Shown here: piece by piece, positions 4,180 through 13,949 of the stretch
Layout of the letters: each line of letters begins with the position of its first letter
How positions within the stretch are numbered: the stretch's first letter is position 1
Source of the DNA: a virus
Virus record (IMG/VR): IMGVR_UViG_3300034789_000647
Span: 1 to 25,436 of that record
Strand: one strand, 5' to 3'
DNA length: 25,436 nt
The notes under the pieces: generated by a model
What the model was told of the DNA's origin: nothing
Database searches by the model: none
Seen by the model: the letters and a program-made list of their open reading frames with translations, nothing else
Translations under genes and position numbers: made by a program

Positions 4180-4579
4180 TCGAGTTCTTGATGGAGACAC
4201 TATTGATGTCACTATTGACCTCGGATTTGATCTTTATAAAAAGGAAAGAGTACGAGTTGCTGGGGTTGATACTCCAGAAAAAAGAACTAAAAATCTAGAG
4301 GAAAAAGCTCTTGGAATCGACGCAACCAACTGGCTCAAAGAGAAACTGGAGGGTGCTATCTCTGGTGACGATGAGTTGTCTGTTAGGACTGAACTTGTTG
4401 GTGGCGTGGGGAAATATGGCCGTCTTCTTGGGTGGTTATACATTGGGGATGCAGAGTTGTCCCTCAATGAACAAATGATCACCGAAGGATATGCTCACGC
4501 ATATGATGGTGGCACAAAAGATATGAATCTTGAAAAATTACGTGAAATCCGCCGTGCTCATGGCACGTTAGTAGAATGA
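4118..4579 (+). CDS. staphylococcal-nuclease-like (thermonuclease family) enzyme
   Basis: A 153-residue protein with the SNase fold signature: VLDGDTIDVTIDLGF early in the sequence (calcium-binding Asp and Thr), then RVRVAGVDTPEKRT, matching the catalytic Arg, Asp and Glu of the family, and a late GKYGRLLGWLYIG segment with the second arginine, followed by LNEQMITEGYAHAY. The frame is open to 4100, but the ATG at 4118 follows GAGGAG by seven bases. No signal peptide is visible, so it probably acts inside the cell as a Ca2+-dependent nuclease, perhaps on host nucleic acid. The stop overlaps the next gene. Confidence 0.88.
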   Translation: MGAMVPPSRKSCYNFRVVEINRVLDGDTIDVTIDLGFDLYKKERVRVAGVDTPEKRTKNLEEKALGIDATNWLKEKLEGAISGDDELSVRTELVGGVGKYGRLLGWLYIGDAELSLNEQMITEGYAHAYDGGTKDMNLEKLREIRRAHGTLVE

Positions 4580-5683: not shown

Positions 5684-5691
5684 CACCCATT

Positions 5692-5776
5692 GGAAAGGTG
5701 GTCGAGTGGTTTATGGCACTGGTCTTGAAAACCAGCGATGTGAAAGCATCCGTGGGTTCAAATCCCACCCTTTCCG
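5692..5776 (+). tRNA. tRNA-Ser (TGA)
   Basis: The 7-bp acceptor stem GGAAAGG/CCTTTCC is perfect. The anticodon stem CTGGT/ACCAG encloses loop CTTGAAA with anticodon TGA. A long variable arm (about CGATGTGAAAGCATC) marks a class II tRNA, and the T loop is GGTTCAAAT. CCA is not encoded. It reads UCA-type serine codons. Confidence 0.95.
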
Positions 5777-9155: not shown

Positions 9156-9389
9156 TAGTCTCGGAAAGACTCTAAAAGTGCCCTGGTCGGTGAAGGTCCC
9201 CCTTCAATCCCGAAGTCATGGAGAGACTTAAACAACCCTGGTGCGGATGGGATTACTCCCGCCCAGTTTCTTGCTTCTGGTAAAAAGTAAGTGGTGGATC
9301 CAAAAGACCCCTTCCGTGTGGTTGATTCCTATTTGCAACTAAACTAAATAGGTGGCGAGCCTGCTCTGGGGGATGACCTCCCCCTCCTC
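9156..9389 (+). other. gene-free stretch with multiple hairpins, candidate RNA
   Basis: About 230 bases between tRNA-Thr and tRNA-Leu with no convincing open frame. Its main folds are AGTCT/AGACT (9157-9171), TCGG-TGAAGG/CCTTCA-CCGA (9187-9213, three-base bulge), AAGTC/GACTT (9213-9229), GGGA/TCCC (9249-9260) within GCGG/CCGC, and GGGGGA/TCCCCC (9368-9384). AGTCTC (9157-9162) could instead pair with GAGACT (9223-9228). CCCTGGT occurs twice (9181, 9236), and CTAAATA sits at 9344-9350. It may be a stable RNA, decayed tRNA genes, or spacer RNA removed in processing. No RNA family is recognised. Confidence 0.45.
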
Positions 9390-11605: not shown

Positions 11606-11614
11606 TACATAGTA

Positions 11615-11962
<348 letters not shown>

Positions 11963-12524: not shown

Positions 12525-12670
12525 CATATGATTGGACACTATTACAAACTCTAATCTTTATCATCACTCCATTCTTTGTTATGCTCGCTTTAACGAGTGA
12601 AAATGATGAAGATGATGGTCCGCCGGATGGTGGTCTTATGACCCCAGCGTACGCACCAACCCCCTCTTAG
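12521..12670 (+). CDS. 49-residue membrane protein ending in the terminator
   Basis: From the ATG at 12521: MTYDWTLLQTLIFIITPFFV, a hydrophobic helix, then an acidic, Pro-rich tail (NDEDDGPPDGG, PAYAPTPS). The last codons and the TAG stop lie inside the stem-loop of the terminator before psbA. The frame upstream of 12521 overlaps hli and is not coding. The function is unknown. Confidence 0.6.
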   Translation: MTYDWTLLQTLIFIITPFFVMLALTSENDEDDGPPDGGLMTPAYAPTPS

Positions 12671-12683
12671 GGGGATTTTTTTT
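12660..12683 (+). terminator. terminator upstream of psbA
   Basis: CCCCCT/AGGGGG with a three-base loop, then an A and eight T (12676-12683). It closes the hli-petF operon and insulates psbA, whose -35 box starts three bases later. Confidence 0.88.
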
Positions 12684-12685
12684 GC

Positions 12686-12714
12686 TTGACAGGCACTGGA
12701 AATTGGTGTATTAT
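12686..12714 (+). promoter_or_regulatory. sigma70-type promoter for psbA
   Basis: Perfect TTGACA (12686-12691), 17-base spacer, TATTAT (12709-12714, five of six). The -10 overlaps the late box at 12712-12719. It would allow early transcription by unmodified host polymerase. Confidence 0.72.
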
Positions 12715-12719
12715 AAATA
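12712..12719 (+). promoter_or_regulatory. T4-type late promoter for psbA
   Basis: TATAAATA is an exact T4 late box. Overlapping it with the early -10 would let psbA be transcribed in both phases from nearly the same start, giving the same structured leader. Confidence 0.7.
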
Positions 12720-12721
12720 TA

Positions 12722-12823
12722 TGGACGGGTGAGGATTTCCTCACCATCCACACACGCCTCACCAGGACTAAACAGCGTGTCTAAAAAATAGTCCTTCATA
12801 CCTTCTCCTGAGGGTGGAGAAGG
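12722..12823 (+). ncRNA. structured psbA leader: hairpin, H-type pseudoknot, hairpin
   Basis: Hairpin 1: GGTGAGG (12728-12734)/CCTCACC (12739-12745) with loop ATTT, extended by TGGA/TCCA. Pseudoknot: ACACGC (12752-12757) pairs with GCGTGT (12775-12780), while GGACTA (12765-12770) in that loop pairs with TAGTCC (12789-12794); the third loop is CTAAAAAA. Hairpin 2: CCTTCTCC (12801-12808)/GGAGAAGG (12816-12823). All arms are perfect. The psbA ATG is 49 bases further. PhotoRC RNA motifs are known upstream of psbA in cyanobacteria and phages; whether this is one needs a covariance search. Confidence 0.7.
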
Positions 12824-12872
12824 AATACTATAACCAGTGTTCCCCGCACTAATACTTAACCCTTTTGTTCAA

Positions 12873-13949
12873 ATGACTACAACTCTTTCAAGGCAACAAT
12901 CATCCACTTGGGAATCTTTCTGCGAGTGGGTAACTTCAACAAACAACCGTCTTTATGTTGGTTGGTTTGGTGTTCTTATGATCCCAACCCTACTTGCTGC
13001 TACGGTATGTTTCATTACTGCGTTTGTCGCAGCACCTCCTGTCGATATCGACGGAATTCGTGAACCAGTTGCTGGTTCACTCATGTATGGAAACAACATC
13101 ATCTCTGGTGCAGTTGTTCCTTCTTCAAACGCAATTGGTCTTCACTTCTATCCCATTTGGGAAGCCGCATCACTTGATGAATGGCTCTACAACGGCGGTC
13201 CTTACCAGCTCGTTGTCTTCCACTTCCTCATTGGCATCTTCTGCTACATGGGTCGTGAGTGGGAACTTTCTTACCGTTTAGGTATGCGTCCATGGATCTG
13301 TGTTGCTTACTCTGCACCAGTTGCAGCAGCATCTGCAGTCTTCCTTGTCTATCCTTTCGGTCAGGGTTCATTCTCTGATGGTATGCCACTTGGTATCTCT
13401 GGTACGTTCAACTTCATGCTTGTCTTCCAAGCAGAACACAATATCCTTATGCACCCCTTCCATATGCTTGGAGTCGCTGGTGTATTCGGTGGTTCATTGT
13501 TCTCTGCAATGCATGGTTCACTCGTTACCTCTTCACTCGTTCGTGAAACCACTGAGACAGAATCTCAGAACTATGGTTACAAGTTCGGTCAAGAAGAAGA
13601 GACCTACAACATCGTTGCTGCTCATGGATACTTTGGTCGTCTAATCTTCCAGTATGCATCGTTCAACAACTCCCGTTCACTACACTTCTTCCTTGCAGCA
13701 TGGCCTGTAGTCGGAATCTGGTTCACTGCACTTGGTGTCAGCACCATGGCATTCAACCTCAACGGTTTCAACTTCAACCAGTCCATCCTTGCTAACGATG
13801 GTCGTGTTCTTAACACCTGGGCAGACGTACTTAACCGTGCTAACCTCGGTATGGAAGTAATGCATGAGCGCAACGCTCATAACTTCCCACTTGACCTCGC
13901 CGCTGCTGAGTCAACTCCTGTTGCACTCACCGCACCTGCTGTTGGTTGA
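12873..13949 (+). CDS. psbA: photosystem II D1 protein
   Basis: D1 is the fast-turnover reaction-centre subunit of PSII; phage copies keep photosynthesis running during infection. The 358 residues are intact and run one behind standard numbering. TyrZ is Tyr160, the P680 ligand His197, iron ligands His214 and His271, and the Mn-cluster ligands Asp169, Glu188, His331, Glu332, His336, Asp341 and Ala343 are all present. The C-terminal extension after Ala343 would be removed. The residue matching position 130 is Glu (in MGREWELS), the high-light D1 form. There is no intron. The frame extends to 12837, but [16 protein letters not shown] is the family N-terminus. Many codons end in C, unlike nearby genes, consistent with host origin. 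Confidence 0.98.

Follow-up and report, generated by a model that had tools for sequence, protein, structure and literature searches.

A predicted pseudoknot and an additional hairpin in the PhotoRC-II leader of a cyanophage psbA gene

Phage-encoded D1, the photosystem II protein specified by psbA, keeps infected cyanobacteria photosynthesising. Among described leaders, that of T4 gene 32, whose mRNA is bound by the single-strand binding protein gp32 at an upstream pseudoknot, resembles the leader described here in being H-type, in lying well upstream of the start codon of a T4-like phage mRNA and in leaving an open A/U-rich stretch between the two; the gene and the sequence are different, however, and binding by gp32 would be by analogy only. 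Closer at hand is PhotoRC-II (RF01717), which was described by Weinberg et al. 2010 (PMC2864571), carries the Cis-reg annotation in Rfam, and is named in two later genome papers, without function tests. The Rfam model as searched pairs two hairpins only (here P1 and P3), with the strands of a further stem, P2, left single-stranded. The CaCoFold paper (PMC7657543) counts PhotoRC-II among the families whose database structure misses covarying pairs, and the 26 families that Rfam 14.9/15 revised by covariation do not include RF01717 (PMC11701678). PhotoRC-I (RF01716), also a structured element directly before psbA, is shorter (44 positions) and occurs in host cyanobacteria rather than in phage. 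Finally, the psbA 5'-UTR of phage S-PM2 contains an inverted repeat that, like the first hairpin (P0) of the present leader, lies just after a late promoter (PMC5931967), but S-PM2 has nothing corresponding to P1 through P4.

The DNA analysed here (the window) is a 25,436-base IMG/VR virus record whose gene complement is that of a T4-like cyanophage. A covariance-model search of the window with Rfam found a full-length PhotoRC-II match (model positions 1-96 of 96) that scores 56.0 bits against a gathering cut-off of 39, and alignment to the model places both consensus hairpins, P1 and P3, in the leader; as in the marine T4-like cyanophages from which the family is known, the element lies before psbA, 36 nt separating the end of the match from the start codon, and its relatives are cyanophages. 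PhotoRC-I had no match anywhere in the window. The first-pass annotation had left it between a PhotoRC-type element and a new one; the former stands, as PhotoRC-II and not PhotoRC-I, and the element is not a new RNA class but one further PhotoRC-II member. From the sequence comparisons given below, we consider it very probable that the element at 12722-12823 is a PhotoRC-II member forming the 5' untranslated leader of the phage psbA mRNA, with a real pseudoknot. Where it differs from the family as published is that the searchable model contains neither the P2 pairs nor P4, the match stopping at 12836, short of the latter hairpin. The features of the locus are as follows.

12660..12683, + strand: intrinsic-terminator-like hairpin and T-run, closing the upstream unit (sequence scan)
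12686..12714, + strand: sigma-70-type promoter-like site, TTGACA-17-TATTAT, 11/12 (sequence scan)
12712..12719, + strand: T4-type late promoter box TATAAATA, overlapping the sigma-70-type promoter (sequence)
12722..12750, + strand: P0 hairpin, presumed mRNA 5' end, arms GGTGAGG (12728-12734) and CCTCACC (12739-12745), outer UGGA/UCCA (complementarity, folding)
12741..12836, + strand: RF01717 PhotoRC-II match, 56.0 bits (Rfam)
12752..12757, + strand: P1 5' strand ACACGC, pseudoknot stem 1 (complementarity, swap test)
12764..12770, + strand: P2 5' strand AGGACTA, conserved five AGGAC, pseudoknot stem 2 (complementarity, comparison of relatives)
12775..12780, + strand: P1 3' strand GCGTGT (complementarity, swap test)
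12781..12788, + strand: loop 3, CTAAAAAA, containing the conserved UAAA (alignment)
12789..12795, + strand: P2 3' strand TAGTCCT, conserved five GTCCT (complementarity, comparison of relatives)
12796..12802, + strand: P2-P3 junction TCATACC, near-invariant columns (alignment)
12801..12823, + strand: P3 hairpin, 8 bp, arms CCTTCTCC (12801-12808) and GGAGAAGG (12816-12823), loop TGAGGGT (complementarity, Rfam alignment, covariation)
12836..12850, + strand: P4 hairpin AGTGT-TCCCC-GCACT, outside the Rfam model (125/125 psbA-linked relatives, swap test)
12873..13949, + strand: psbA, photosystem II D1 protein, without a Shine-Dalgarno-like site (ORF, translation)

The leader thus runs from P0 at its 5' end through the H-type pseudoknot (P1 crossed with P2), P3 with its GGG loop and P4 with its CCC loop into an open, A/U-rich stretch of about 21 nt that leads up to the start codon. 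All four sets of arms reported in the initial reading of the sequence (P0 to P3) are present, perfect and correctly placed, and P1 and P2 do interleave, with loops CTCACC, AACA and the eight bases of loop 3; P2 has seven pairs, one more than had been reported. When the window sequence is folded to its nested energy minimum, the 3' strand of P2 goes into another pairing; this alternative was rejected on finding it unconserved in relatives (own strands 9.4, swapped 9.5). Since the element has its own promoters and an upstream terminator, it appears to be the start of a separate transcript; the same pair of sigma-70-type and T4-type late promoter motifs has been described before cyanomyoviral psbA genes (Puxty et al. 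2018, PMC5931967). The late promoter box, NATAAATA, was found in 112 of 149 relatives at a median of 41 nt 5' of the element core, and most relatives have a hairpin at the position of P0.

For the comparative test of P2, 39 seed sequences were aligned without regard to structure, and a covariance model given only the P3 pairs, with no P1 or P2 pairs, was run on psbA-bearing viral loci, replacing a first descriptor search that was too loose. Scores of this model split cleanly, at 29 bits or more and below 17, and 153 distinct copies were collected. All five Watson-Crick pairs of the conserved P2 core were present in 126 of the 128 copies that were non-redundant and long enough to be counted, in eight sequence types, a count to be read with the knowledge that the seeds were chosen with P2 pairing in mind and that one locus-gathering pattern scan fixed the commonest P2 letters, most hits being non-seed. 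The types are GAGAC/GUCUC (104 copies), AAGAC/GUCUU (8), AGGAC/GUCCU (5, the window's own), GAGAU/AUCUC (3), GGGGC/GCCCC and GAGGC/GCCUC (2 each), and GGGAU/AUCCC and GGGAC/GUCCC (1 each). The two exceptions, at the divergent loci L047 and L073, were seen by eye to contain both stems with shifted boundaries and changed sequence. On a tree built from the psbA coding sequence, two-sided changes at P2 pairs 1, 2, 4 and 5 numbered about 8, 9, 4 and 3, counts that psbA recombination could inflate. A high pairing score was reached by 98% of own P2 strand pairs vs none of 1246 swapped pairs. On two model alignments, in which P2 is helix 1 and the pair totals include P3, to which the model was fitted, pairing counts (cells paired, two-sided change and covariation score) exceeded those of all shuffles and all slid controls. 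In our own stricter, phylogeny-preserving test of covariation across all column pairs, which confirmed four P3 pairs and gave false signals where P1 was misaligned, P2 did not reach E < 0.05, its four varying pairs ranking 19 to 101 of 6441; this is attributable to P2 being nearly fixed, with GAGAC/GUCUC in 81% of copies. Five pairs retained in 126 of 128 copies through eight sequence types argue for a genuine, conserved pseudoknot.

P1 is present in every parsed copy, in 53 distinct sequences, and its strands pair better with their own partners than with swapped ones (16.0 vs 12.6); its pairing is kept even across an insertion of about 20 nt in loop 1 (L023, L066 and L069). By the comparison of relatives, the predicted fold is an H-type pseudoknot, two interleaved stems each kept by compensatory change. 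The first-pass annotation had pointed to the leaders of related phages as the place where compensatory changes in both stems should be sought, and that is where they were found; element-bearing relatives, L047 and L073 included, keep complementarity in both. Three leaders have P1 and P2 without P3 or P4, namely L221 (1113-1200), P-RSM3 (L434) and the freshwater phage S-CRM01 (L438), the last recognised by eye only, being under both the Rfam cut-off and the threshold of our own model, and from these three we infer that the pseudoknot is a separable core. A search for further pseudoknot-only leaders like that of S-CRM01 returned a single contig of 178,563 bases, a length that is also that of S-CRM01.

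Downstream of P3, a hairpin was found even when no sequence was required of it. Defined as at least four pairs with a loop containing CCC or CCUC, P4 was found in every psbA-linked copy (125 of 125), where shuffled sequence would give 15.7; its stems comprise 37 distinct sequences and score 12.6 with their own strands vs 6.1 with swapped strands, and a median of 21 nt separates its end from the first ATG in these copies. Judged by this conservation of pairing, P4 is part of the element, although it lies beyond the published Rfam model. The pseudoknot of PhotoRC-II may already have been drawn in earlier sources; the literature searched gave no earlier description of P4 or its constant CCC loop, of leaders reduced to the pseudoknot, or of the element's absence in S-PM2.

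Our own model detected PhotoRC-II in 17 of 22 psbA regions of named isolates, spanning many Kyanoviridae genera and also S-TIM5 and S-SKS1; S-SM2 and Syn1 are among the phages that carry it. It was absent from the three T7-like podoviruses examined and, by either the Rfam or our own model, from the psbA region of S-PM2, where a P0-like hairpin stands alone without P1 to P4; since S-PM2 expresses psbA all the same, at least one phage can do without the element. Among cyanobacterial psbA loci it occurs in none of 80, which marks it as a phage-side element; in Synechococcus WH7803 (L408), psbA is preceded by PhotoRC-I. That the structure sits only before psbA, as first observed, holds within the window, which has a single PhotoRC-II match, and nearly holds beyond it, with two clear exceptions among the 153 copies (L240_4321 and L339_2434), both of which lack P4. 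Locus L240 has two copies, at 4321-4400 and 5688-5764, with a 388-aa gene (MSLSTNTVYRLFVEKLGG...) in between; P4 is missing from the copy before that gene, and the element of L339 precedes a gene of the same kind. At L226 (1081-2410), a group I intron accompanies a PhotoRC-II element of P2 type GGGGC/GCCCC in the same psbA; the two are thus compatible, in contrast to the situation in S-PM2. Another group of psbA leaders without PhotoRC-II, seen at several loci (e.g., L017, 1915-2000), has AGCCCTCC..GGGAGGGCT as a hairpin and, after it, AAAGTGC..GCACTTT, whose loop contains ACCC, and in the podoviruses P-GSP1 and NATL2A-133, Glutamine-II riboswitch aptamers lie right after psbA (L435, 1829-1883; L449, 1684-1739).

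As an overall explanation, we favour, as probable, a PhotoRC-II leader that acts in cis on the phage psbA mRNA to stabilise it or promote its translation. Control of psbA by the leader after transcription is likely; the specific stabilising or translational role is held more tentatively, at just short of an even chance. In the mechanism that we consider likeliest, the compact folded leader would guard the 5' end of the mRNA while the fold keeps a short ribosome-landing stretch open before the start codon, and phage psbA mRNA would remain stable and translated during degradation of host mRNA, which is known to occur in infected cells (PMC10976474). In cyanobacteria, the A/U-rich 5'-UTR of psbA mRNA is cut by RNase E in the dark and is protected by ribosomes and antisense RNA (reviewed in PMC10989914). 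The fixed single-stranded letters ACC, UAAA, UCAUA and GGGU are probably contact sites, whether for a protein, for the ribosome or for some other segment of the RNA. No terminator-like site of the kind used by a transcription attenuator lies between 12684 and the psbA start. A Shine-Dalgarno site hidden or presented by the fold was considered as the main reading and dropped, none of 123 element-bearing leaders having one upstream of psbA. Such sites precede only 4 of 78 cyanobacterial psbA genes and 11 of the 39 genes in the window, and hiding of a ribosome site is thus unlikely, given that psbA without a Shine-Dalgarno site is normal in cyanobacteria and that genes without one are common in the window. 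The fuller structure, pseudoknot core plus P4, bears on how phages control psbA, and the natural variants, with S-PM2 lacking all of P1 to P4 and L221, P-RSM3 and S-CRM01 having the pseudoknot only, provide leaders that can be compared directly as they stand.

The main alternative is that the pseudoknot core is a sensor, a candidate binder of a small molecule or of a protein (e.g., D1 or phage gp32) that would turn psbA translation or decay up or down. Its stems are free to vary while the unpaired letters are near-invariant (ACC 99%, UAAA 91-100%, UCAUA 90-100%, GGG 94-99%), which is the pattern of a binding site, and P1 and P2 persist alone in the three pseudoknot-only leaders. However, the discoverers of PhotoRC-II rated it an unlikely riboswitch ('n') (PMC2864571), it serves nearly one gene, which would be unusual for a metabolite sensor, and neither an alternative terminator nor a hidden ribosome site is visible, so we regard a sensor as rather unlikely.

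One could also suppose that the GGG of the P3 loop kisses the CCC of the P4 loop, toggling the leader between closed and open states. The P3 loop contains GGG in 120 of the 125 psbA-linked copies, every one of which has the CCC or CCUC of P4, and at least four consecutive Watson-Crick pairs are possible in 91 of the 120. The loops do not covary, however (own 3.83, swapped 3.86), and 46 copies have an ACCC 3' of P4 that is able to pair with P3 instead. A GGG:CCC contact is possible almost everywhere because the loop letters are near-constant, and since there is no covariation we do not claim it; a kissing toggle is in our estimate unlikely. Equally doubtful is a two-module device, in which a stand-alone pseudoknot core would be joined by add-on hairpins with kissing GGG and CCC loops; if it were true, the folded leader, kept at a constant spacing of about 21 nt to a start codon that lacks a Shine-Dalgarno site, would control ribosome loading on phage psbA.

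The near-exceptionless linkage to psbA would also fit a light- or redox-responsive switch specific to this gene. In Puxty et al. 2018 (PMC5931967), the phage gene whose expression depended on light intensity was the psbA of S-PM2, and its structured 5'-UTR was proposed to contribute. Because S-PM2 has only the P0-like hairpin, though, the light response does not require PhotoRC-II, and the RNA shows nothing recognisable as a redox sensor. The idea of light or redox control is weakened accordingly, and we consider a switch of this kind quite improbable, although the element could add to the light response in other phages. Chance complementarity without function is practically inconceivable: when the 151-nt leader is dinucleotide-shuffled, a comparable 6+6 pseudoknot does arise in 27 of 3000 cases (0.9%), and one can be drawn at three further sites on the + strand of the window, yet the Rfam match and the compensatory changes by which about 150 relatives keep both stems already refute it.

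The leader folds well for its composition (nested folding z = -3.9). The initial impression that it holds far more structure than the rest of the window was nevertheless mistaken, since its best segment ranks only 20th of 844 by nested folding z-score and the Rfam search also found ten tRNAs and one wcaG RNA. The latter (RF01761, 61.9 bits), a second cyanophage cis-regulatory RNA in the window, lies at 9211-9305 between tRNA genes. Two hairpins that exclude each other, CATAGTATT/AATACTATG and TTTGTAATACTAT/ATAGTGTTACAAA, lie at 11608-11672, before petF (ferredoxin, 11670), whose start codon is covered by a third arm, TACTATG; these hairpins are not common to the petF-bearing relatives among the fetched loci. 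Between 503 and 16240, along with the ten tRNAs, translations show a dense set of host-like metabolic genes, namely gnd, zwf, plastocyanin, plastoquinol oxidase, talC, hli, petF, psbA, psbD and speD.
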